Below, piece after piece: positions 13,632-29,698 of a stretch of 64,000 bases of DNA. The translations under genes were made by a program, and so were the position numbers. The DNA lies in NCBI RefSeq assembly GCF_008362905.1, contig NZ_VFJB01000006.1:186001-250000 (forward strand), given 5' to 3'. A model generated the notes under the pieces. It saw only the letters and a list, made by a program, of their open reading frames with translations, was not told the origin of the DNA and did not search any database. Position 1 is the stretch's first letter. The number at the start of each line of letters is the position of its first letter. This stretch comes from Deferribacter autotrophicus. Lineage in GTDB: Bacteria; Chrysiogenota; Deferribacteres; Deferribacterales; Deferribacteraceae.

Positions 13632-15152
13632 TTATTTTATAGGCAGTTTGATTATGAAGAGTGTATATTTATTTTTTTCAGATTTGACAATTATTTCACC
13701 GTTTAGGTTATCTACGATTCTTTTGACTATACTTAATCCAAGACCAGAGCCAGGATATTGTCTTTTAATATCTGATATGCGGTAAAACCTTTTGAAAATA
13801 TTCTCAGTTTCGCCTTCAGGAATACCTATACCAGTATCTTTTACTGAGAGAATTAAATAGTCATCTTCAAACTTTGTTGATATCTCTATTGACCCATTTT
13901 CTTTATTATATTTAATAGCATTAGAAATGAGATTGGATAAAAGAAATTCCATTAGAGTAGGATCTGAGTAAAAGGTTTTAACATCTATGTTTTTAATAAT
14001 TTTTAACTGTTTATTTTCTATTTCCATTTTAAATTTTGATAATACGTATTCAATAAGATTTTCTACATCTACTTCATCATCCATAAAGTCGTAAGTTGCG
14101 TATTCTAATTTGTTCAAAAGGATAATTTTGTCAAAAAGGTCTTTTAAAATCCTAGAGTTTCTGAGAATTATTTCTAGACATCTTTCTATTTGTGCACTGT
14201 TCTGACTATTTTGGATAATATCTGTGCAGGAGATTAGTTTTGTAAGAGGAGTTCTTACTTCGTGGGCTAATGAATCAATAATATCCGATTTGAATTGATT
14301 CATTTTTTTAAGGTTTTCGTTAGTTTTTTTAAGTTCTTCTAGGGCTATGGCGTATTTACCTACCGCCTGATTTATTTTATATTTTAACTCATTTTCATGG
14401 CTTTTCAGCTCTTTTATCATCATATTAAAAGCTTTAGCCAAATCTTCAAATTCATCCTTGGTTTTTAAATCAACAAAAATATTAAAGTTACGTTTTTCTA
14501 CTTCTCTTGTGGCTTGTTCAAGAGATTTTAAAGGATTTAGAACACTTCTTTTTAACAGTACAATCAAGATGAAATTGAGAAAAAGATACATTGTTATTCC
14601 TGAAATAATAAAAAGGATAAGTTGCTGTCGTAGATTGAGAATTATATCTTTTAACGGGATAAAAACAGAGATTCCTCCTCGTAATTCACCTACTTTATAT
14701 CCTTGATAATGATGGCATTGTATGCAAGATTGATTAATATAAAGTGGAGCCATATAACGATAAACCTTACCGTATTCTTTATCAAATTCAATCCTTTCAA
14801 CTTCTTTCTTCCCTTCTTTAAAAAGTTTTAGTGCATATTTTTCAAATTCATCAGGTTTGTTTTGTGGATTAACCAATCTGTCACTGGTAATGTGAAATCT
14901 GAAATTGGACATTCTTTTAGCGTATTGTGAAAGTTCTTTTGTTGCCACTGCAGGAACAGGTTTAATTTTATCCCTATTTTCTGCAACCCATTGCCTGGTA
15001 ATAAGTATCATGTTAAACAGAGTTTTTGCCTGAATTTTTGCTTGTTTCATGATTAGCTGTTTCTGATTGTGCCATAAAATTAAATAAAAAGGGGCTAAAA
15101 TAAGTAAAATGGCAATATTAAGTGAAATGATGATTTTAGCAGTTATTTTCAT
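13632..15152 (-). CDS. Sensor histidine kinase with periplasmic c-type haem domain
   Basis: Inner-membrane sensor of 506 residues. After an N-terminal helix (about 9-27) comes a periplasmic domain of the Tll0287-like type (DUF3365) containing one haem motif, CIQCH (near residue 146). A second membrane helix (about 177-199), a HAMP domain, a coiled coil, a HisKA domain with LAHEVRTPLTKL, and a GHKL ATPase with N, G1 (DTGIGIP) and G2 (GSGLGLSIV) boxes follow. A bound haem suggests sensing of redox state, NO or another ligand. It follows the OmpR-type regulator by 12 bp and both are downstream of napH in the same orientation, so it is likely the sensor for nitrate/nitrite respiration. The signal is inferred. 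Confidence 0.9.
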   Translation of the reverse strand: MKITAKIIISLNIAILLILAPFYLILWHNQKQLIMKQAKIQAKTLFNMILITRQWVAENRDKIKPVPAVATKELSQYAKRMSNFRFHITSDRLVNPQNKPDEFEKYALKLFKEGKKEVERIEFDKEYGKVYRYMAPLYINQSCIQCHHYQGYKVGELRGGISVFIPLKDIILNLRQQLILFIISGITMYLFLNFILIVLLKRSVLNPLKSLEQATREVEKRNFNIFVDLKTKDEFEDLAKAFNMMIKELKSHENELKYKINQAVGKYAIALEELKKTNENLKKMNQFKSDIIDSLAHEVRTPLTKLISCTDIIQNSQNSAQIERCLEIILRNSRILKDLFDKIILLNKLEYATYDFMDDEVDVENLIEYVLSKFKMEIENKQLKIIKNIDVKTFYSDPTLMEFLLSNLISNAIKYNKENGSIEISTKFEDDYLILSVKDTGIGIPEGETENIFKRFYRISDIKRQYPGSGLGLSIVKRIVDNLNGEIIVKSEKNKYTLFIIKLPIK

Positions 15153-15164
15153 TTTATGTATATC

Positions 15165-15848
15165 TTAGCACTCAAATTTATAACCAACTCCAGGTACAGT
15201 TTTTATAAAATATGGCTTTTTAGGATTTTTTTCTATTTTTTGTCTCAAATGCTGAATATGAACGTCAAGGGTTCTTGACCAGCGATATAGGGAATCATCT
15301 CCCCAAATTTCTTTTATTATTTCATCTCTCTTTATATTTTTCCCTGCATTTTTTACAAGGAAACTTAAAATTTCCAGCTCTTTTTTGGTCAATTCGATAT
15401 GTTTCCCATCTTTAAAACATAACCCTTCTTCCAGATTTATTTCAAATGGGGGGTATGAAATTATCTTATCATTTATATTTGTGTTTTTCGCTCTTCTTAG
15501 TACCGCTTTTATTCTGGCTAATAATTCAATTTTTTCAAATGGTTTGGTAATGTAATCATCACAACCGTATTCAAAACAAAGGACTTTGTTAGAAACAGTT
15601 TCTTTTGCTGTTAAAACAATGATGGGGGTATCATATTTTTCTCTAATTTTTTTACATAGATGTTCGCCGTCAATGTCAGGTAAGCCTAAGTCTAATAGAA
15701 TCAAATCGTAGCAGTTGTTTTGGAGAAGATTAAAGCCAGTAATTCCATTTTGAGCAGTGACTACTTTAAAATCTTCCATTTCAAGAAAAAGCTTTAAAAT
15801 TTCAAGAATTTCAAGATCATCATCAATAATCAAAATTTTTTTCTTCAT
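15165..15848 (-). CDS. OmpR/PhoB-family response regulator
   Basis: A 227-residue DNA-binding regulator. The receiver has the acidic triad DDD at residues 9-11, the phosphoacceptor Asp53 in LLDLGLPD, and the conserved Thr (VLTAKE) and Lys (ITKPFE). The C-terminal winged helix is of the OmpR type, with ELTKKELEILSFL and RTLDVHIQHLRQKIE. It lies between napH and the haem-containing kinase, 43 bp after napH, probably in the nap operon. The GTAAA repeats with one-turn spacing in the nap-hao divergent promoter region are candidate binding sites, because OmpR-type proteins bind direct repeats of about 10 bp period. Confidence 0.92.
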   Translation of the reverse strand: MKKKILIIDDDLEILEILKLFLEMEDFKVVTAQNGITGFNLLQNNCYDLILLDLGLPDIDGEHLCKKIREKYDTPIIVLTAKETVSNKVLCFEYGCDDYITKPFEKIELLARIKAVLRRAKNTNINDKIISYPPFEINLEEGLCFKDGKHIELTKKELEILSFLVKNAGKNIKRDEIIKEIWGDDSLYRWSRTLDVHIQHLRQKIEKNPKKPYFIKTVPGVGYKFEC

Positions 15849-15891: not shown

Positions 15892-16701
15892 TTAAAAAAA
15901 TCTAAATTTTAATGTATCTTCTTTTTTATTATCCGGACACACATCTACACATTTACCGCAATTATGACAAAGATAATTATTTCCATCAGTCATAGGATTG
16001 ATACCCATAGGACAGCTTTTTATACATCTTAAACAATTGCTACAGCTTTCTTTTGTTTTTACTATATGAAGCCCTTTTTTGGTACGAAAAATAGATAAAA
16101 AAGTCCCGGTAGGGCAAAAGTATCTACACCAGAAAAAGTTTCCTAACAAAATTTCAATAATTAACAAAATGAGAATAAAGACTATTTCAAAGGTGAAATA
16201 ATGAAATTTTATTAAAACGAGGGCTTGGGATGAGATAATACCAGGCGCTGATATAAGATTTAATAAAGGGATTCCAACGACCCCTGTTATGAAAAGTCCG
16301 CTTATTAGAAAACTAAATCTAAAAATATTAACTTTATTGGTTTTGTTATAAGTTTTTAATTTATTTTTCTTTTTTATTCTTAATTTTATTCTTATGGAAT
16401 TTAAAAGTTCAACTAAAAAATGGTAAGGACACATCCAGCTACACCAAATTCTGCCTAAAATAAACATTAGAAGTACAGGTATTATGATAGAGACAAACAT
16501 GGTGAGTACAAAATGCTTAGAGACAAGAAAAGCTTGGAAGATGGCCAAAGGGTCAGCGATAGCGATATCTCCCACATCTAAAGAATAAAAAGTCCCCTTT
16601 ATAAAGTTGATTCCAATAATATTCAACATGGGGATTAAAAACATTAAGATAAAGACAAACGTTTGGGTTAATCGTCTATATTTTGTAATTTTATTTTTCA
16701 T
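15892..16701 (-). CDS. napH: NapH-type membrane iron-sulfur protein
   Basis: A 269-residue inner-membrane protein with about four hydrophobic helices, CSWMCPYHF and CRYFCPTG (CxxxCP motifs of NapH/NosR-type proteins), and two C-terminal 4Fe-4S clusters (CSNCLRCIKSCP and CHNCGKCVDVCP). In known systems NapH with NapG oxidises quinol and passes electrons to the periplasmic NapA. Since no napC is seen here, the NapGH route may be the only one. The start at 16701 overlaps the napG stop (ATGA). Confidence 0.92.
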   Translation of the reverse strand: MKNKITKYRRLTQTFVFILMFLIPMLNIIGINFIKGTFYSLDVGDIAIADPLAIFQAFLVSKHFVLTMFVSIIIPVLLMFILGRIWCSWMCPYHFLVELLNSIRIKLRIKKKNKLKTYNKTNKVNIFRFSFLISGLFITGVVGIPLLNLISAPGIISSQALVLIKFHYFTFEIVFILILLIIEILLGNFFWCRYFCPTGTFLSIFRTKKGLHIVKTKESCSNCLRCIKSCPMGINPMTDGNNYLCHNCGKCVDVCPDNKKEDTLKFRFF

Positions 16702-17462
16702 TCTTGTTCTTCCCATTCATCAATTGTTTCTTGAACATCAAAATTAGATTCAAAGGTAGGTTTTTCACCGAAAGAGGATATACTTTCTTTTTTTTTGACC
16801 TCTATTTCCGTTTTTTCTGCCATTGTATCTTTTATTGTTTTAGATCTCTTTTGAGCTTGGATCTTTAGTTTTCTATAATAGAATCCAGCCAATTCTTTTT
16901 CTTCCATCCCTTTTGGGATGATATTTACTGATTTTGGGGTTGTAGGGCATTTTTCCGTACAAACGCCACAACCAGTACAAGAATCAGTGATTACTGGTAA
17001 AATAAAATGTTCCATTACAATGGCAGTATCTCTGAGTGGGCATACATCATAACAGATACTACATAAAAGGGCATCTTCACTTACACCTTTTTCTTCATCA
17101 ATGAAATATTTGAAATTCAAACAGGTTTCCTGATTAATTATAGCAATCCCTATTTCTACCTGTTCAGGTTTTGTTATATTGTTATCCAAAGCACCAGTCG
17201 GACAAACTGTAGGGCATTTCATACAAAGATAACACCCTTTTTCTTCGGCGAAAATGTACGGGGTACCTATTTGTAATCTTTCAAAAACATCAGCTCTTTT
17301 AATGGAATCATATGGGCACACTTCTATACAACGTGCACATCTAATACATAATTCCATAAATTTGGATTCTTCTTGCGCACCTGGAGGGCGCATTCTATTT
17401 TTTTTAAAAAAACCTTTAAATGGATTACGGTTTAGGAAATTTTTTAAATCATCAATTTTCAT
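16698..17462 (-). CDS. napG: NapG-type ferredoxin
   Basis: A polyferredoxin of about 254 residues with four 4Fe-4S binding sites, in order CIRCARCIEVCP, CYLCMKCPTVCP, a Cys-rich variant around CSICYDVCP, and CTGCGVCTEKCP. It should carry electrons between the NapH membrane subunit and NapM/NapA. No twin-arginine signal is evident at the N-terminus, which is unusual since NapG is normally periplasmic; it may start further upstream or be carried by a partner. The tail after about 190 is charged. The ATG at 17462 overlaps the napD end; a GTG 21 bp earlier is an alternative and neither has a strong ribosome site. Confidence 0.88.
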   Translation of the reverse strand: MKIDDLKNFLNRNPFKGFFKKNRMRPPGAQEESKFMELCIRCARCIEVCPYDSIKRADVFERLQIGTPYIFAEEKGCYLCMKCPTVCPTGALDNNITKPEQVEIGIAIINQETCLNFKYFIDEEKGVSEDALLCSICYDVCPLRDTAIVMEHFILPVITDSCTGCGVCTEKCPTTPKSVNIIPKGMEEKELAGFYYRKLKIQAQKRSKTIKDTMAEKTEIEVKKKESISSFGEKPTFESNFDVQETIDEWEEQE

Positions 17463-17772
17463 TGGTCGTTTTTCTTCTTTCACTTTTTGAAAAACCTGAT
17501 AAATCAGGTTTTTCCCCTGTTTTCAAAATTCTTTCTACTTCTTCTTCAAAATGTAGATAATGTGGTGAAACATCAATTATATATTCATGCTGTTTTAATT
17601 CATTTATAAGCTTTTCTATCTGTTTATCAGTTTCAGCTTCAATGGTTACTACTATAAGTTGGTCATCATCTGATTTTGTGAATACGGTTATTTCTTTATA
17701 TTGTAAAATAAACTTTTCTACTTCTTTAATTTGTTTATCTTTTACAAAAATTATACATCCACAATATAGCAT
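17452..17772 (-). CDS. napD: NapD-type chaperone
   Basis: A 106-residue cytoplasmic chaperone that in other bacteria binds the Tat signal of NapA during cofactor insertion. The protein has a ferredoxin-like beta-alpha-beta pattern and the segments CGCIIFVKDK and LIVVTIEAETDKQIEKLIN. Its position between napA and napG supports the assignment. The ATG at 17772 has a strong GGGAGGA site just upstream; in-frame codons further upstream cover the hairpin between napA and napD and are unlikely to be translated. Confidence 0.8.
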   Translation of the reverse strand: MLYCGCIIFVKDKQIKEVEKFILQYKEITVFTKSDDDQLIVVTIEAETDKQIEKLINELKQHEYIIDVSPHYLHFEEEVERILKTGEKPDLSGFSKSERRKTTNEN

Positions 17773-17797
17773 ATTTAATTCCTCCCAAAATGGAAAA

Positions 17798-17815
17798 GGG
17801 CTCCATTTGGAGCCC
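17798..17815 (-). terminator. Intercistronic hairpin between napA and napD
   Basis: Perfect 8-bp stem GGGCTCCA/TGGAGCCC with a 2-nt loop, followed on the minus strand by TTTTCC. The T run is short, so it may be a partial terminator or an mRNA stabiliser that lowers expression of napDGH relative to napMA. Confidence 0.6.
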
Positions 17816-17823
17816 AATTTTAT

Positions 17824-20211
17824 TTAATAATAACTAGAATTAATATCAGAGATTATTACTTTCTCCTTCATCTGTATAGAGCCAGAGTATTTTCTAATTT
17901 TAACTGCAGCAATTTTAAACTCTGGTTCTTTTGATCCAGGGTCAACGGCATCGTTACATACAAAGTTAATCATTCTGCTGATTTCCTGATCGAACCAAGG
18001 TACAAAAAGCACGCCTGGCAATGAGTTCTTAGTGATTCTAGCAGGTAATATTGCTTTTCCTCTTCTGCTAATTACTTCAACTAAGTCACCTTCAAAAATG
18101 TTGTATTTTCTAGCATCATCAGGGTGTATTTCAATGTAAGCGTAAGGATAACTTCTTGCTATCTCAGGTATTCTCATTGTCATTGTACCGGTGTGCCAAT
18201 GAGCAATAACTCTACCTGTTGTGAGATAGAATGGATATTCTGCATCAGGCACCTCAGCTGGTCCTTTATAAGGTCTTAGCCAGATATTTGCTCTACCTTC
18301 ACCTTTTTTATCCATATAGAAGTAGATTTTGGCATCATCAGGTATCTTTTTACCAAAGAATCTCTTGAATTCTTCATGTTCAAACATTGGGTCCATACCG
18401 CGAACATATCTTTTATAAGTACCAGGATGTCCTGGATATGGACATGGCCATTGAATACCAGCTTTTTCTTTTTTGAGCCTATCGTAGGTTGCACCCCATA
18501 GAGAGTGGTCACTATCTTTTGTAACTGTGATGTAATCAGTCCATGCCATTTCATTTGCTTTCATTGAATCATCCATATTCCATGGGATAAGTTTTTCAAA
18601 TCCCATTCTTTTTGCGATTTGTGCTGCTATCCAGATATCAGGTTTTGCTTCTCCAGGAGGATTAACTGCTTTTTCTGTGAGCTGGCTTCTTCTTTCACTA
18701 CATCCGTAAACACCACCTTTTTCATAAAGGAACGCAGCAGGAAGAACTACATCTGCAAGCTGTGTTGTTTTAGTTGGGAAAATATCGAGTACAACCAGAA
18801 AAGCGTCTTTCATACCTTTTATGTATCTATTAAGGTTTGGTAACGATTGAGCTGGGTTTGTAGTGGATGTTAGCATTGCTTTTATAGGTTTATTTGGATC
18901 ATTTTCTCCACCAAGGGAATCGAACATTTTCATTGTATGAAATCCAGGTTTTGGATCAATGGTGCCTGGTTTAAGTCCCCAAACTTTTTCCACGTGAGTA
19001 CGCCATTTTTTATCTTTAACAGGTTTTGTTCCTGGTAATAGGTGACAAAGAGAACCAGTTTCTCTAACACCACCACAAGCGTTTGGTTGACCAGTAAGGG
19101 AGAATGAATCAGCTCCAGGCTTACAGATGTTACCTGTAATGAGGTGTAAGTTATGAATCAGGTTGTTTGCCCAAACACCCCTTGTTCTTTGGTTAAGTCC
19201 CATTGTCCAGAGAGTCATTGTGGCACCACTTGTGGCAAACCACTTAGCAGCTTTTCTGATATTTTCAGCAGGACATCTTGTAAGTTTTTCAACAACTTCA
19301 GGTTTAAACTGTTCAACAAACTCAACATATTTGTCGAATGAGTAAACATTTTTACCATCTGTAATACGTGTATGTGCATCAATGAATTTTTTATCATGCC
19401 AGTTGTTTTTAATAATTTCTCTAGCCATTGAGTGGAATACTGCGAGGTCTGTCCCAGGATCCACTGGTAGCCAAAGGTCTGCAATTTTTGCAGTATTGGT
19501 TTTCCTTGGTTCACAAACGATGATTTTTACATCAGGATTTCTAAGTTTATGTCTCATTATACGTCTGAAAATAATAGGGTGACATTCACTGGTATTTGAT
19601 CCAACAAGGAATATACATTTAGCATTTTCAATATCAGCGTAACTACCTACAGGTTCATCAGAACCAAAGGTTGTGATATATCCACCCACTGCACTTGCCA
19701 TACAGAGCCTTGGGTTACCTTCTACCATGTTACTTCTAAATCCACCTTTCCAAAGCTTGTTGAAGGTGTAACTTTCTTCTGTGGTACACTGACCAGAACC
19801 GTAGTAAGCTACAGAATCTTTTCCATATTTTTTGTGGAAATATTTAAATTTCTTAGCTACATAGTCAAGAGCTTCATCCCAGGAAACTCTTTTAAATTTT
19901 CCGTCTTTTTGCCTAATCATTGGATATTTAAGCCTGTCTGGGTGATACATACATTTGTAAGCAAGAAAACCTTTCACACAAAGGAAACCGAAATTTGTTT
20001 TAGCTTCAGGATTTCCTTTAATGGCAACAACTTTTCCATCTTTAACACCAACATAAACTCCGCAACCAGTTCCACAAAAACGGCATGTACCTTTAACCCA
20101 TTTATCAACAATTTCTTTTGATTCTACTTTTTTAGGTAATGAAAGACCTATAGAAGCAGCTGTGGCTGATGCTATGGATAGTTTAATAAAATCCCTTCTA
20201 CTTAATGACAT
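17824..20211 (-). CDS. napA: Periplasmic nitrate reductase catalytic subunit
   Basis: Molybdenum enzyme that reduces nitrate to nitrite in the periplasm. The 795-residue precursor begins with the Tat signal SRRDFIKLS followed by a hydrophobic stretch. The 4Fe-4S cluster Cys are at 43, 46, 50 and 78. The Mo ligand is probably Cys170 in GNPRLCMASAVGGY, as in NapA, not Asp as in NarG. The C-terminal molybdopterin region has TGRVIAHWHTGTMT. It follows napM by about 10 bp. The order napM-A-D-G-H matches the sulfate reducer Desulfovibrio desulfuricans (napC-M-A-D-G-H) with napC missing. Confidence 0.95.
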   Translation of the reverse strand: MSLSRRDFIKLSIASATAASIGLSLPKKVESKEIVDKWVKGTCRFCGTGCGVYVGVKDGKVVAIKGNPEAKTNFGFLCVKGFLAYKCMYHPDRLKYPMIRQKDGKFKRVSWDEALDYVAKKFKYFHKKYGKDSVAYYGSGQCTTEESYTFNKLWKGGFRSNMVEGNPRLCMASAVGGYITTFGSDEPVGSYADIENAKCIFLVGSNTSECHPIIFRRIMRHKLRNPDVKIIVCEPRKTNTAKIADLWLPVDPGTDLAVFHSMAREIIKNNWHDKKFIDAHTRITDGKNVYSFDKYVEFVEQFKPEVVEKLTRCPAENIRKAAKWFATSGATMTLWTMGLNQRTRGVWANNLIHNLHLITGNICKPGADSFSLTGQPNACGGVRETGSLCHLLPGTKPVKDKKWRTHVEKVWGLKPGTIDPKPGFHTMKMFDSLGGENDPNKPIKAMLTSTTNPAQSLPNLNRYIKGMKDAFLVVLDIFPTKTTQLADVVLPAAFLYEKGGVYGCSERRSQLTEKAVNPPGEAKPDIWIAAQIAKRMGFEKLIPWNMDDSMKANEMAWTDYITVTKDSDHSLWGATYDRLKKEKAGIQWPCPYPGHPGTYKRYVRGMDPMFEHEEFKRFFGKKIPDDAKIYFYMDKKGEGRANIWLRPYKGPAEVPDAEYPFYLTTGRVIAHWHTGTMTMRIPEIARSYPYAYIEIHPDDARKYNIFEGDLVEVISRRGKAILPARITKNSLPGVLFVPWFDQEISRMINFVCNDAVDPGSKEPEFKIAAVKIRKYSGSIQMKEKVIISDINSSYY

Positions 20212-20221
20212 AGTTTCCCTC

Positions 20222-20575
20222 CTATTTGTACTGATGAACTTTATGAACTGTAAAACTGTGAGCTATGTGGCAGCTTGAGCAGGATTTGTCTTTGGCGAGG
20301 TTATTTTCAACTTGAATGGAGTGACAGCCGATACATGTTTCGTCTGCAGGTTTGGCTTTGAAGTTCTTTTCATCTCCGTGGCATACACCACATTCTACTC
20401 CAACAAGCCCGTGAGCACTTTGATTCCACTGCTTAACCACATCCGGTGTTACATCGGTGTGGCAGCTCAAACAGGTGGAATCTGCCATATCTTCCGGGTG
20501 TTGGTCTGAATAAACATTAAATACTAGTAAAATGGTAATAAGTAAAAAGGTCAAAATAAACACTTTTGTTTTCAT
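20222..20575 (-). CDS. napM: Tetrahaem cytochrome c, NapM-like
   Basis: A 117-residue exported cytochrome with an N-terminal signal (about 1-23) and four CxxCH motifs: CLSCH, CGVCH, CIGCH and CSSCH. It likely carries electrons to NapA, as proposed for NapM in sulfate reducers. The ATG at 20575 is preferred, with GGAGGTG 3-4 nt upstream, over a TTG earlier. It is the first gene of the nap operon and its promoter lies in the 186 bp between it and the divergent hao gene. Confidence 0.88.
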   Translation of the reverse strand: MKTKVFILTFLLITILLVFNVYSDQHPEDMADSTCLSCHTDVTPDVVKQWNQSAHGLVGVECGVCHGDEKNFKAKPADETCIGCHSIQVENNLAKDKSCSSCHIAHSFTVHKVHQYK

Positions 20576-20619
20576 GGGCACCTCCAAATTAACGTTATTT
20601 GTAGTATGCTCTAAATGAA

Positions 20620-20705
20620 GTAAAAAAGAGTAAAAAGTGGTAAAGCTATTGTAAAAAATGTAAAGAAAAAATTTAATGTTTTTACAACGAAATGAGAACT
20701 TTTAC
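20620..20705. promoter_or_regulatory. GTAAA repeat array in the nap-hao divergent promoter region
   Basis: GTAAA occurs at 20620, 20630, 20640, 20651 and 20660, i.e. at steps of 10, 10, 11 and 9 bp. On the other strand GTAAA lies at 20681-20685 and 20701-20705, 20 bp apart. One-turn spacing of direct repeats is the hallmark of OmpR/PhoB-type regulator sites, and such a regulator is encoded in the nap operon. Binding is inferred. Confidence 0.55.
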
Positions 20706-20761
20706 ATTTTTTTTAGATGGTGAAAGATATATTTTGATTAGAATATTTTCAGGAGGTGTTT

Positions 20762-23064: not shown

Positions 23065-24696
23065 ATGTTTTGTTATCAGTGTAGTGAGGCTTTGAAAAAT
23101 CAAGGTTGTACTGTAAGAGGTGTTTGTGGGAAGGATGATGAAGTAGCAAGTTTACAGGATCTTTTAATTTATTCTGCAAAAGGGTTAGGTTATCTTCTCA
23201 ATGAGGGAAGAAAAAAAGGTATTAAAAATGAGAAAGCTGATCTGTTTGTACTTGAAGCGCTTTTTGCTACAATTACTAATGTTAACTTTGATCCTCAGAG
23301 ATTTGTTGATTATGTCAATCAATCAATAGAAATCAGAAATGAATTGATTGATCAGATTAAACCTGAGGGTAATTTGCCAGATGCAGCTACATTCAAAGTA
23401 AATGGTAAAGAGGATATGCTTGCTAAAGCGGCTGCAGTTGGGATACTCTCAGAGGAGAATGAAGATATCAGATCTTTGAATGAACTTCTCATTTATGGTT
23501 TGAAAGGTATTGCAGCTTATGCTGATCATGCTTATGTGTTGAATCACAAAAGTGAAGAGATTTTTGAGTTCGTAGATTTTGCTCTTGCTGAAACGTTGAG
23601 AAAAGATATCTCTGCTGATGAACTTATCAATCTTGTTTTGAAAGCAGGTGATGTAGCAGTTAAGACGATGGAGTTGCTTGATAAAGCAAATACTTCAAGA
23701 TACGGCAACCCTGAAGTTACAAAAGTGTATACAGGACTTGAAGAAGGTCCAGCTATCCTTGTAAGTGGTCACGATTTGCTTGACCTTGAAGAGTTGCTCA
23801 AGCAAACAGAGGGTACAGGCGTAAATGTTTATACTCATGGTGAAATGCTTCCAGCCCATGCTTATCCTGAGTTTAAAAAGTATAAACATCTTAAAGGAAA
23901 CTTTGGTACAGCCTGGTTTAATCAGATTCATGAGTTTCCTGAATTTAACGGTGCAATTCTTTTCACAACAAACTGTATTGTTCCACCAAAGGATTCTTAT
24001 TTTGACAGACTTTTCACAACAGGGCTTGTGGGCTGGCCAGGTGTGCCACACATCCCAAACAGAACAGATGGAAAACCTAAAGATTTTACACCTGTAATTG
24101 AAAAGGCAAAAGCTCTTGGCGGATTGAAGCCGAAAGAAGGTAAATATATAACAATTGGTTTTGCTCATGAACAGGTAATGCAAGTTGCTGATAAAGTAAT
24201 TGAAGCAGTTAAATCTGGTAAGATTAAGAGATTTATAGTTATGGCAGGTTGTGACGGTAGACTTAAAAAGCGTGAGTATTACACTGAAGTTGCTAAAAAA
24301 TTGCCTCAAGATACTGTAATCTTGACAGCTGGTTGTGCTAAATACAGATATAATATGCTGGATCTTGGTGATATTGATGGTATTCCAAGAATTCTTGATG
24401 CTGGTCAGTGTAATGATAGTTATTCTTTGGCTTATATTGCATTGAAGTTGAAAGAAGCTTTTGGACTTGATGATATAAATGATTTACCAATTTCTTACGA
24501 TATTGCATGGTATGAGCAGAAGGCTGTGGCTGTGCTTCTTGCACTTCTTGCTCTTGGTGTAAAAGGTATCAGGCTTGGGCCAGTTCTTCCTGCGTTCCTT
24601 TCACCAAATGTAGCTAAGGTACTTGTGGAAAACTTTGATATCAAACCAATAGGTGATGTAGATTCAGATATTGAAGCAATGCTTCAAGGAAAATAA
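23065..24696 (+). CDS. hcp: Hybrid cluster protein (hydroxylamine reductase)
   Basis: A 543-residue cytoplasmic iron-sulfur protein able to reduce hydroxylamine to ammonium and, in E. coli, NO to N2O. The N-terminal Cys3, Cys6, Cys15 and Cys21 match the class I spacing known from Desulfovibrio, not the class II spacing of enterobacteria. The hybrid-cluster ligands can be placed at [41 protein letters not shown] and the late [14 protein letters not shown] precedes the ATG. Between two terminators, it is a single-gene unit with its own FNR-type box. No hcr reductase gene is seen. It may remove hydroxylamine or NO formed by the nap-hao route. Confidence 0.96.
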
Positions 24697-24721
24697 AAAA
24701 GCGGGGAATTTCCCCGCTTTT
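24697..24721. terminator. Bidirectional terminator between hcp and the multihaem gene
   Basis: Stem AAAAGCGGGGA/TCCCCGCTTTT (24697-24707 and 24711-24721), 3-nt loop, with A's before and T's after, so it can work for both converging genes. Confidence 0.9.
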
Positions 24722-26643
24722 TATTTGAATGATTCTAATAATTTTTTTGCCGTTTCAATATTGTGAGGAAGAATTTTTCTAATTTTCTCTAATTCAGAGA
24801 CTTTAGTTTTATCTTTCTTGAATTTCATTTTTAATGTGTGAATTTTTGCATATAGTAGATTATATTCATTGAGAGTATTTTCATATTTTTGCTCATCAAA
24901 AGGTATTGAAAAATCTATTCCTTTTACATCCCAAGCATTTTTCACATAAACAAAAGGTGCAAAATCATCTATATGTCTACCTTTTACAGGAATAATCTCA
25001 CTATATTTAAAATCGCCAAACTCTATCCCATTTTTACCAGCTTTGATAACATAAGAGCCATAGAAAGGTTTTTTTACATCTGTTTTTACAGTGTAGGCAA
25101 ACCAACTTGTTGCAATTTGTTCATGGCTTGAATGACAACTGTTGCAATTTCTCCCTTTACCTATTGCATGTGACATTTTATCCATTTGAATCCAAGCAAG
25201 CATATTATCGTTGTTTTTTAATCCCTTAAAAATTCCTGTTATTATATACATATCATTAACTTCATCAGGTTTTCTTTCTATTACAAATTCTTTAGGTTCA
25301 CCAATTTCTGTTTTACCTTTAACAATAGTTTTTTTGATTTCTCTGACCATGAGTCCAGTTTTTTCTACATTACCTTTAATGTTCATAACAGCCATAGGGT
25401 ATGGTTTGACAGGAATCCATTTTCCAGTAGCCGGATGCTTAACTAAGGTTGGTATACTTCTTACGCCATAGTACTGTTTATGTTTTGCAAAGTAATTGAA
25501 CTGACCTTCTGAAATACCGGGGCCCCAGAAAGTAAACTGATAAGCACCTACTTCTTGAATATGACAGGATGAACAGTCAACATTTTTATGGTTATTACTT
25601 GTTTTTACTGCCTCAACAATTTCAGCGTGGCATTTTGAACATGATTCTTTAGCATCAATTGAAGCCAAATGCCCATAGCTATGATTTTTCATCTTATGAC
25701 AGTCTGTACAGTTTATATTATTCTTAGAATGAACATCAGCAGGTAATTCTCCATATGGAAATGCAAATTCTTCACGCATATACCCAGCTCCCCTTCTTCG
25801 ATCCATAGGCCCAGCATGACAAATTGTTCCTTTCCCGCTACCGTAACAACTTAGATTTTCTACTTTCTTAGTGAAAATGTGTCTCGCTTTAGATTTTTTA
25901 TAACCTTCATAGTGACAATCATTACAACTTGCGTGACATTTATTGCACCCTCTATTTTTCCCATCATTCATCAATTGGGTAAAATCTTTTGTACATTCAT
26001 TTTTTATCTGTTCATAATTGTCTCCCCACCATACTCCGCAATTTTGTGGCCCAGGAGGATTTTTTCTCCAGTTTGTAAAAGCTCTCTGATATTTATTTAA
26101 TCCCATTCCAGATTTATTATAGTCAGTAAATTCCTGTTCATGGCATTTTCCACAAGTTTCTTTAGCAATTTTAGGTGAATAAGCAAAAGTTTTTGGATCG
26201 TGATCGTGATAGAAAAGTTGCATTAATTTTTTAATTCCATATTTTTGCTTAGCTTCATTAGTTGGTTTTCTCAGTAATAGTTTTGTCCTATTTTTACCTT
26301 TTGGTTGGATAGGATCATAATTTGTTACTTCTCTTCCTATTGCTTCATATTTGTGTTTTTTTCCGATTGCAGCATAAAATGGTCTTGGCATACCTTTATG
26401 GGCTTCATTTTTATCCATAGTTTGATTGTTACCCAGGTGGCAATCAACACATGTTGGGGCACCTTCCATATTTACTTCTTTGTCAACTTCTACCGGATCA
26501 AGATACATTTGGGGAGATCCAAGTTTTTCTAACAATTTCTTGTCTGAATGACATTTAACACAGGTAGAATCTGGATCGTAACCATATGATAATGTGGCAA
26601 AAGTTACAATAAATAAAATTAAAAAAAACAACGATTTCTTCAT
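24721..26643 (-). CDS. Nine-haem periplasmic cytochrome c (possible tenth atypical haem site)
   Basis: A 640-residue exported protein with a signal peptide (about 1-21). Nine CxxCH motifs are visible: CVKCH, CVDCH, CGKCH, CNKCH, CNDCH, CTDCH, CSKCH, CSSCH and CNSCH. In addition CYGSGKGTICH has the form C-X8-CH, which could be an unusual extra haem site like the extended motifs known in MccA-type proteins. The C-terminal ~200 residues hold one haem and a helical tail. The precise enzyme family was not recognised; a respiratory reductase or electron carrier is likely. AGGAGG precedes the ATG. Its promoter is of the sigma-54 type with two activator sites, and the activator gene lies just upstream on the same strand. 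Confidence 0.82.
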   Translation of the reverse strand: MKKSLFFLILFIVTFATLSYGYDPDSTCVKCHSDKKLLEKLGSPQMYLDPVEVDKEVNMEGAPTCVDCHLGNNQTMDKNEAHKGMPRPFYAAIGKKHKYEAIGREVTNYDPIQPKGKNRTKLLLRKPTNEAKQKYGIKKLMQLFYHDHDPKTFAYSPKIAKETCGKCHEQEFTDYNKSGMGLNKYQRAFTNWRKNPPGPQNCGVWWGDNYEQIKNECTKDFTQLMNDGKNRGCNKCHASCNDCHYEGYKKSKARHIFTKKVENLSCYGSGKGTICHAGPMDRRRGAGYMREEFAFPYGELPADVHSKNNINCTDCHKMKNHSYGHLASIDAKESCSKCHAEIVEAVKTSNNHKNVDCSSCHIQEVGAYQFTFWGPGISEGQFNYFAKHKQYYGVRSIPTLVKHPATGKWIPVKPYPMAVMNIKGNVEKTGLMVREIKKTIVKGKTEIGEPKEFVIERKPDEVNDMYIITGIFKGLKNNDNMLAWIQMDKMSHAIGKGRNCNSCHSSHEQIATSWFAYTVKTDVKKPFYGSYVIKAGKNGIEFGDFKYSEIIPVKGRHIDDFAPFVYVKNAWDVKGIDFSIPFDEQKYENTLNEYNLLYAKIHTLKMKFKKDKTKVSELEKIRKILPHNIETAKKLLESFK

Positions 26644-26826: not shown

Positions 26827-28119
26827 TTAAATTATTTTATATTCTTTTAGTTTTCTATAGAGTGTTGATCTATCTATTTTTAATATCTCAGATGCCTTTT
26901 TTTTATCAAAATTAGTATATTGTAATACTTTCAAAATATGTTCTTTAATTACTTCATCTAGATCTTTCATGTCATTATTTGAAGAACGTTTTTCAATAAT
27001 TATAGATGAATCCGTTATATATGAACTTGTTTCAATAATCATTGCTCTTTCTATCAAATTTGAAAGTTCTCGGACGTTACCAGGATAATCATATGCCAAT
27101 AAAGATTTTTTTGCTTCATCGGTAAAGTCAATGATTTTGCTATTTAAAAGTTTATATTTTTCTAAAAAATAATAAGCTAAAGGTATAATATCCTCTTTGC
27201 GTTCTCTTAATGGTGGGATCTTAATATTTATAACATTTATTCTATAAAAAAGATCTTGACGAAATTTATTTTCAGCAATGAGCTTTTCAAGGTTTTTGTT
27301 TGTTGCAGCTATTATTCTTACGTCACTTGTTTCACAACATTCACTTCCAAGAGGAAAGAATTCTTTACTTTCTATAAAACGTAGAAGTTTTGCTTGTATA
27401 CTTAGTGGCACTTCACCTATTTCATCAAGAAAAAGTGTGCCACCGTTAGCTAATGCAATTAAACCTTTTTTATTTTTATCTGCTCCGGTAAAAGCTCCCT
27501 TTTTATAGCCGAATAGCTCACTTTCAAATACGGTTTCTTGTAAATTTGCACAATTAATAGAAATCAGTGGTTTTTTGTTTCTCCTACTATTTTCGTGAAT
27601 ATACCTAGTGATCAACTCTTTTCCAGTTCCGGTTTCACCACTTATTAGAACAGTAGAATCAGAAGATGCGACTTTTTTGGCAAAATTTAATGTTTCTTCC
27701 ATTACTTTTGAAACAAAAACTATTTTATCTTTATCAGTTTGTGAGTGTATTTTTTGCTTAATATTTATTGTATCTTCTATTTGTTTTAATTTTATTTTAA
27801 GAATTTCTGTATCAATTGGTTTGAGCATATAATCGGAGGCGCCTAATTTTATTGCTTCTACAGCTTCTTCCACAGTACCATACCCTGTAATCAATAAAAT
27901 AAATGTATCGTTTGATATTTTTTTTATTTTTTTCAAAAGTTCCATTCCTGATATTTTTGGAAGTTTGATATCTGAGATTACAACATCAACGAAATTATTT
28001 TCAATATATCGTAAAGCAATTTCAGGGTCATAAAAACCTTTTATATCAAATAGATCGTTTAAGCTGCGTATCAAGGTACTATTTAATACTTTGTTATCTT
28101 CAATCAGAACTATTTTCAT
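26827..28119 (-). CDS. NtrC-family sigma-54 response regulator
   Basis: A 430-residue activator with a receiver domain (acidic residues near 8-9, phosphoacceptor Asp in VVISDIKLP near residue 54), an AAA+ domain with Walker A GETGTGKE, the sigma-54 contact loop GAFTGA and Walker B LFLDEIGE, and a Fis-type helix-turn-helix at the end (KKASEILKIDRSTLYRKL). It likely binds the two palindromes just after its own stop codon and drives the nine-haem cytochrome from the sigma-54 promoter. The gene overlaps the 3' end of the adjacent histidine kinase by 20 bp, so the two are a two-component pair; the kinase is frameshifted. Confidence 0.94.
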   Translation of the reverse strand: MKIVLIEDNKVLNSTLIRSLNDLFDIKGFYDPEIALRYIENNFVDVVISDIKLPKISGMELLKKIKKISNDTFILLITGYGTVEEAVEAIKLGASDYMLKPIDTEILKIKLKQIEDTINIKQKIHSQTDKDKIVFVSKVMEETLNFAKKVASSDSTVLISGETGTGKELITRYIHENSRRNKKPLISINCANLQETVFESELFGYKKGAFTGADKNKKGLIALANGGTLFLDEIGEVPLSIQAKLLRFIESKEFFPLGSECCETSDVRIIAATNKNLEKLIAENKFRQDLFYRINVINIKIPPLRERKEDIIPLAYYFLEKYKLLNSKIIDFTDEAKKSLLAYDYPGNVRELSNLIERAMIIETSSYITDSSIIIEKRSSNNDMKDLDEVIKEHILKVLQYTNFDKKKASEILKIDRSTLYRKLKEYKII

Positions 28120-29698
28120 AATGTCTAAACCTTATTATAAATTTTGTCCCAACATTTTTTTTAGATTGTATATCTATTTTTCCATTGTGGTCATTTATTA
28201 TTTTATAAACTAAAGAAAGACCAAGACCTGTTCCTTTTTCAGGAGATTTTGTAGTGTAAAACGGATCAAATATTTTATCCAATATCGATTCATCTATGCC
28301 TTCACCATTGTCTTCTATTTCTAATATTATCATATCATTATCTCTTTTTAAATTAATTTTTATTTCTCCATAATCTTTAATTGCATCAATGGAATTTAAT
28401 ACAATATTAAGTATTGCTTGTTGGATTAGTGTGCGATTTCCTATGAGTTTGCAACTTTCTAAATCCAACTTAAAGTTAATTTTGCTGGAGTCTTCCTGCA
28501 AATAAGTTACTATTTTTTCAATAACATCTTTAAGATCAATTACATCTCTAATATCGCTACTTGTATATTTTGGGTCTAATAATTTTAGATTGTTTATTAT
28601 TTCTACGCATTTTTTTGCTTCCTCTTTAATTGTTTTTATATCGTCAATATTTATGGTACCATTATTGTTAAAATCTTTTAACAGAAGGTCGCAAAGTAGC
28701 AGTATTGAATTTAATGGTGAATTAAGTTCATGGCTAATTCCTGCAGATAATAATCCAATGGAACTGAGTCTGTTTAAAAGTTCCATTTTTCTCTGTTTAT
28801 CTTGAAGTTCGTTAATATAACCTTTTAGTGACTGAGCCATGTTCTGAATAGAAACAGCAATTTCCGTTAATTCATTACTCATATTTTTGGTATCTATATG
28901 AAAATCCAAATTACCAGAGCCGTAAATGTTTAAAGCGTCTTTTATATATTTTATAGGTTTTAGAAATCTAGAGCTAAAAATTATTGAAACTAAAATACTA
29001 AGAAAAATAGAAAAAGATAATATGGCAAATAAATTCTTTTTTAGAACATTTAAAATATTGAAATAAATCAAAAGCCATAATATTACCATTAATATTTATG
29101 ATTCCAGATTTTTTCTCTTTTATAATATTAAAGTATTTATCTCCATAAATATTTTGAAAATAATATTTTGTGTTGTATTGGTTTGCAAATTCATAATATT
29201 TATTTTTATGAAACAAAAATATTCCGTTTCTTTTACTATCTTTTGAATTAATTTCCACTAAAAATGCAAAACCTTTTTTAGGATTAATTTTGCTTATGAA
29301 CTCACCAAGCTTCAATCCCCAAAAATTTATTATTAAGTAACCTTTTTTTTGTTTATCTATAGGGATTGGAATCATTGTTCTTATCATAGCAGGACAAAAC
29401 TTAGTTGTTTCAGGAAGTTTGCCTCTTTCGAAATTGGATAAAAGAATATCATTTACGTTTGATTTAGATATTTTTTTAAAAAAATGTTTTTGTGATATGT
29501 TTATTGTTGATAAGTAATATCTTTAATGTTTTTTAAAAAGGCATTAATCGATTTTTTAGATTCTGAAGTTAGGATTTTTGCCTGATTATTTATTTCCTGT
29601 TCAATAATTATTTTTGAATGATAATAATTAAAATAAGTGGATAATAACAAGGTTACTGTAATTAATGAAATAATATATAAAGAAAGTTTTAATTTCAT
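28100..29698 (-). pseudogene. Histidine kinase broken by two compensating frameshifts
   Basis: Three frame segments make up a kinase of about 530 residues: a start with a membrane helix (29698 to 29501), a periplasmic sensor region (about 29510 to 29060), and a second helix, HAMP, HisKA (LSAGISHELNSPLN) and GHKL ATPase (29089 to 28100). The first junction lies between 29501 and 29523: upstream of it the second frame has a TAA and downstream the first frame stops. The second lies between 28998 and 29098. The two shifts cancel, and the sensor reads through with sensible sequence (NDILLSNFERGKL before MIRTMIPIPID). Either a decaying gene or two sequencing indels. The catalytic part alone (from 29089) might still be made. 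Confidence 0.75.

Follow-up and report, generated by a model that had tools for sequence, protein, structure and literature searches.

Response regulators of the OmpR/PhoB type have as their signature head-to-tail repeats at 9-11 bp, and in pho-box promoters the direct repeats bound by PhoB replace the -35 element, end about 10-11 bp upstream of the -10 and serve to recruit RNA polymerase. In Escherichia coli and its relatives, the CpxR box has the form GTAAA-N4-8-GTAAA (PMC5063474), while nap and nrf are under two-component control by the NarXL and NarQP systems in E. coli (PMC12285233). A gene cluster combining nap and hao is known from Deferribacter autotrophicus (PMC6896113) and from the genus (PMC13186404), and the accessible parts of both papers propose hao as a replacement for NrfA on gene content alone. 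A signalling-type sCache_heme domain of another bacterium is described, in the accessible part of a preprint, as binding NO tightly with a slow off-rate and forming no stable O2 complex (PMC12889525).

We focused on the gap between napM and hao in a 64,000-nucleotide stretch of D. autotrophicus DNA (referred to as the window here; all positions are counted in it). The genes of this locus are as follows.

13632-15152, minus strand: sensor histidine kinase with a CXXCH-bearing Tll0287/sCache_heme domain, HAMP, HisKA and HATPase
15165-15848, minus strand: OmpR-type response regulator (receiver and Trans_reg_C), candidate binder of the arrays described below
15892-20211, minus strand: napA, napD, napG and napH, following napM
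20222-20575, minus strand: napM, encoding a tetrahaem cytochrome c and opening the nap operon (NapM in PMC6896113)
20762-22357, plus strand: hao, octahaem cytochrome of the hydroxylamine oxidoreductase family, predicted target of the second array

Beyond hao lie the hybrid cluster protein gene hcp (23065-24696) and a convergent multihaem cytochrome gene (24721-26643), both within the published nine-gene cluster; the latter is adjoined by an NtrC-type response regulator gene overlapping a histidine kinase gene (26827-29089).

Between the ATG of napM (20575, minus strand) and that of hao (20762, plus strand) lies a gap of 186 bp with a G+C content of 26%. Five GTAAA repeats start at 20620, 20630, 20640, 20651 and 20660 (steps of 10, 10, 11 and 9 bp), and the same pentamer on the opposite strand, TTTAC, starts at 20681 and, 20 bp further on, at 20701. 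A first-pass annotation of this DNA had reported both sets of boxes, and every coordinate was reproduced. At such a base composition, the repeats might be a product of chance or of neutral similarity among AT-rich intergenic sequences. However, a GTAAA/TTTAC chain of five at 9-11 bp steps never arose when the gap was shuffled 20,000 times with its dinucleotide composition preserved; the longest shuffled chain had 3 members (2 cases in 20,000) versus the 5 observed. Chains of five of any pentamer were absent both from 3,000 gap shuffles and from the other 186-bp stretches of the window. Moreover, the exact pattern GTAAA-N5-GTAAA-N5-GTAAA has a single occurrence in the 2.54-Mb genome. Head-to-tail arrangement, a period near 10-11 bp and retention in relatives (see below) are as expected of tandem direct-repeat operators of the OmpR/PhoB family.

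Alignment with relatives led us to read the gap as two separate five-box arrays of identical geometry, which abut head to head and would together form a bidirectional promoter. Toward each gene, TTTAC boxes follow a common grammar of offsets 0, 9, ~20, ~30 and 40. In the aligned relatives, the nap promoters have boxes at 0, 9, 20, 30 and 40 and the hao promoters at 0, 9, about 20, 29 and 40, each with a hexamer at 56 (TAnnnT in the case of nap), and in both alignments 11 bp separate the last box from this -10 hexamer. TTTAC at 20681 and 20701 correspond to boxes 2 and 4 of the hao-facing array and are its two best; boxes 1, 3 and 5 are weaker here than in relatives. The first-pass annotation had taken all repeats for the site cluster of an OmpR-type regulator controlling nap and hao; the comparative evidence for this kind of control is strong, but there are two arrays rather than one cluster. 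Their elements are listed here.

20620-20664, minus strand: nap array, five boxes
20660-20664, minus strand: nap box P1, TTTAC, aligned with 21 other nap promoters
20651-20655, minus strand: nap box P2, 9 bp from P1; P1-P2 is the strongest conserved pair
20640-20644, minus strand: nap box P3, with TTACA/TTGCA variants in relatives
20630-20634, minus strand: nap box P4, with TTAA variants in relatives
20620-20624, minus strand: nap box P5, 11 bp upstream of the predicted -10
20603-20608, minus strand: predicted nap -10, CATACT, at a fixed alignment position; weak here, TAnnnT in most relatives
20672-20716, plus strand: hao array, five boxes
20672-20676, plus strand: hao box P1, TTTAA, from the alignment of relatives and sequence
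20681-20685, plus strand: hao box P2, TTTAC, from the alignment of relatives
20691-20696, plus strand: hao position P3, degenerate here and placed by spacing; AACA/AACT in relatives
20701-20705, plus strand: hao box P4, TTTAC, from the alignment of relatives
20712-20716, plus strand: hao box P5, TTTAG, 11 bp upstream of the -10
20728-20733, plus strand: predicted hao -10, TATATT, from alignment and sequence

No -35 element was found before nap, hao or ONR (octahaem nitrite reductase, a proven type of nitrite reductase, see below), given that matches to TTGACA at the appropriate distance reached 2.3-2.45 compared to 2.59 at random. With no usable -35 and the last repeat 11 bp upstream of the -10, these promoters have the layout of the PhoB class, suggesting a promoter type that needs an OmpR/PhoB-type activator. 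From box position and the missing -35 we infer activation. With boxes taking up all the room between the two -10 hexamers, polymerase could be occluded, so that the arrays might instead repress or the regulator act as a dual switch. We consider this quite unlikely, since the boxes leave the -10 free, the last one ends where an activator usually sits, and the -35 is missing.

To compare the arrays among relatives, we used the orthologous gaps together with the napM upstream regions in 30 genomes. The same grammar was present at nap in 22 genomes and at hao in 10, although the conservation values are somewhat inflated because anchor positions in the alignments were picked by score. Before both genes, the grammar recurs in most Deferribacterales, and the abutting pair of arrays was also found in G001, G003, G008, G010 and G015 as well as in several genomes of family f7, where ONR replaces hao. 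When positions were ranked by spacing only, the two window arrays came first and second of 127,872, which is a consistency check and not an independent test, given that the grammar was partly derived from these sites. Several repeats of the window contain A runs (GTAAAAAAG, GTAAAAAG, GTAAAAAAT) in helical phase, and as phased A-tracts they could bend DNA intrinsically with no specific protein reader. In relatives, however, runs of at least 4 identical A/T bases are few (19 of 110 nap, 15 of 50 hao and 3 of 55 ONR boxes), and no column is better conserved than the C of TTTAC, which 94 of 110 nap boxes retain. Since curvature would not need a conserved C, we rejected A-tract bending as highly improbable.

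We scanned 50 relatives with R1, a model of the nap and hao arrays based on sequence only; within the window, R1 matches 20602-20669 on the minus strand and 20668-20736 on the plus strand. Its third-ranked genome matches (~17 bits), at genes for a chemoreceptor, an oligopeptide-binding protein and a GGDEF protein, were rejected as regulon members because the sites lie inside coding sequence, and the next-best genome matches inspected are mostly within unrelated coding sequence too. Weak matches in G015:C6, G001:C1:2076531, G002:C2:665929, G022:C58, G017:C83 and G042:C13 were set aside, being inside coding sequence or not before nitrogen genes. The nap promoters of family f4 (G004 and G018) score at background level, although the regulator is present. 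A second model (R2), built from the nap promoters of other genera alone with the window's genus left out, fails to make the window arrays stand out: it puts the nap array at rank 14 with 11.5 bits and does not list the hao array, a result that on its own would favor chance similarity. The boxes of this species fit R2, while the linkers do not.

In each of ten hao-less genomes (G002, G006, G009, G013, G016, G019, G027, G029, G036 and G038), R1 identified one strong site on which it had not been trained, and all ten lie just upstream of ONR; a weaker array site precedes ONR in an eleventh genome, G030. The gene after each untrained site encodes a multihaem cytochrome with seven CXXCH/CXXCK motifs, and the G002 protein, used as the query, matches solved octahaem nitrite reductases at 1e-137 to 1e-142. 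Of the 11 ONR promoters in families f2 and f6, 10 score above the 99th percentile of control windows. These untrained sites, together with the shuffling results and the conservation of spacing in several families, leave chance similarity hardly credible as an explanation.

Orthologous hao never occurs together with ONR (none of the ten hao genomes has ONR), and in families f4 and f7 ONR is divergent from nap, at the position that hao holds in f1, f3 and f8. Given that the array precedes ONR in hao-less genomes and that ONR occupies the slot of hao, the array follows function and not a particular gene; judged by this distribution, it is a putative mark of nap and the local nitrite reductase, be it hao or ONR. 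In the comparison with relatives that the first-pass annotation had called for, the spacing grammar thus recurs before nap, hao and ONR. The annotation's claim that both units are jointly controlled is supported, with the amendment that the predicted regulon consists of nap and the local nitrite reductase rather than of two units brought together by accident of position.

That hao sits in the same regulatory slot as ONR supports the view that it acts as a nitrite reductase here. Sharing this slot with a proven nitrite reductase type, and never coexisting with it, provides independent evidence for the proposed role of hao and bears on how Deferribacter and its relatives convert nitrite to ammonium without NrfA. 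Hao-family proteins do occur beside ONR in non-orthologous form: the ONR genome G013 also encodes a distant hao-like octahaem cytochrome of 38% identity (G013:C7:91719-93044, L073). We would give about even odds to a wider scenario in which hao and ONR replaced each other as the nitrite reductase gene on more than one occasion, with the promoter retained or rebuilt, the arrays form a minimal two-promoter regulon, governed through the fixed five-box grammar by a dedicated and old haem/NO two-component system found in both Deferribacterota and Nitrospirota-type genomes, and hao is identified as the working nitrite reductase.

Which protein reads the arrays? The first-pass annotation had placed an OmpR-type regulator and a c-haem sensor kinase at the end of the nap operon, and our gene reading and domain searches agree (PF00072 at 5e-29 and PF00486 at 4e-26 for the regulator; PF11845 at 1e-23 for the Tll0287 domain of the kinase). 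The kinase joins a CXXCH-bearing Tll0287 domain to a signalling module, the composition of an sCache_heme sensor, and the CXXCH is kept in 30 of 30 kinase orthologues. Both proteins are conserved through the order, including the recognition helix SR[ST][LI]DVH of the regulator, whose closest solved relatives are RegX3 and RpaA. The pair is found at the end of nap or beside hao in families f1, f3 and f8 and in part of f6 but is unlinked to nap in several families. Genomes of family f7 (e.g., G007, G014, G031 and G042) show an unusual split of the two-component pair, with the haem kinase beside napGH and the regulator gene elsewhere.

In outgroups and other phyla, presence of the array was compared with that of the regulator. 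The two outgroup nap genomes without the regulator, G048 and G049, show no array (15.2 and 15.5 versus a control mean of 16.1). Among hao loci of other phyla, boxes P2-P5 are present in 4 of 5 with an adjacent relative of the regulator and array boxes in 0 of 17 without one, a result that is suggestive and not final because the cut-off was chosen once the first case had been seen, the four loci are not independent of one another by descent, and part of the contigs are short. The four, L013, L019, L022 and L027, come from Nitrospirota-type MAGs and carry four TTWACA boxes (steps of 11, 10 and 10) between the regulator and hao, upstream of which relatives of the regulator (43-46% identity) and of the haem kinase (30-32%) are encoded. 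The remaining locus, L008, has the regulator pair beside hao and no clear array. The regulatory unit may be common to different phyla.

Taken together, the linked OmpR-type regulator is the best candidate and very probably the binder of the arrays, as judged from its domains, location and co-occurrence. The arrays might also be genuine operators of a different protein (PhoB, or one of the CRP/FNR, NarL or NtrC type), with the OmpR-type neighbor controlling something else: gene neighborhood does not prove binding, the unlinked pairs fit this possibility, and the genome encodes further regulators, e.g., the NtrC-type protein at 26827-28119. We regard this as unlikely but by no means negligible, since the 9-11 bp head-to-tail spacing carries the OmpR/PhoB signature and only two Trans_reg_C proteins were found in the genome, the other being PhoB-like and encoded beside pstB, phoU and phoR-like genes. 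Linkage of the pair to nap or hao also recurs in several families, and in the Nitrospirota-type MAGs the array goes with the regulator. Positive feedback on the sensor genes, a further first-pass claim, could operate in this genus, whose nap operon closes with the regulator genes. As a conserved feature, autoregulation was rejected: in several families the pair lies elsewhere, with no obvious array upstream of it in f2, f4, f6 (g6 and g10) and f7.

With the linked regulator as the reader, the kinase would sense its signal through the periplasmic c-type haem domain and phosphorylate the response regulator from the end of the nap operon. The phosphorylated regulator would then fill each array as head-to-tail dimers and recruit RNA polymerase at the promoter-proximal box, similarly to PhoB-class activators, so that nitrate reductase and the nitrite-to-ammonium enzyme would be switched on together. 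We assign a probability of about 0.77 to this explanation as a whole (two arrays, binding by the regulator and joint activation), based on the repeats, their grammar and conservation, the recurrence before ONR, the missing -35 and the co-occurrence with the regulator. Five boxes are an odd number for a dimeric regulator, which counts against it. Given that an sCache_heme domain of another bacterium holds NO, NO arising from nitrite reduction is a reasonable signal; we consider it the most likely one, with a chance of being correct close to one-half, and nitrite, nitrate or redox state are possible alternatives. In Deferrivibrio metallireducens, napA expression increases about six-fold with nitrate (PMC11896075).

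Compared to known systems, the arrays resemble the CpxR box in the pentamer, the head-to-tail spacing of ~10 bp and the OmpR-family reader proposed here, and the 9-11 bp steps correspond to N4-N6 within GTAAA-N4-8-GTAAA. They differ in the number of boxes (five, not two) and in their fixed positions, and they precede nitrate and nitrite reductase genes instead of envelope stress genes. The regulator does not appear to be a CpxR ortholog with a CpxA-type partner, since its kinase has a Tll0287 haem domain and CpxR is absent among its best solved relatives. With the pho box, the arrays share the layout of repeats in place of a -35, but the box is TTTAC and not TGTCA, the spacing is 9/11/10/10, the targets concern nitrogen oxides, and the genome has a separate PhoB-like protein. 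NarXL/NarQP likewise coregulates nitrate reductase and an ammonium-forming nitrite reductase, whereas NarL and NarP are LuxR-type proteins with heptamer sites, in contrast to the OmpR-type regulator, five-box arrays and haem sensor proposed here. A search of the open-licence literature returned no earlier description of the arrays or the regulon: the accessible parts of PMC6896113 and PMC13186404 contain the same gene cluster and do not describe its regulation, the arrays or the exchange with ONR. The kinase shares its domain and CXXCH with the sCache_heme (DUF3365/Tll0287) sensors of PMC12889525, in the accessible part of which no DNA target or regulon is named; we propose the connection with nap, hao and ONR. 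This would give the sCache_heme sensor family a concrete candidate DNA target and regulon, in an order with little known transcription control.
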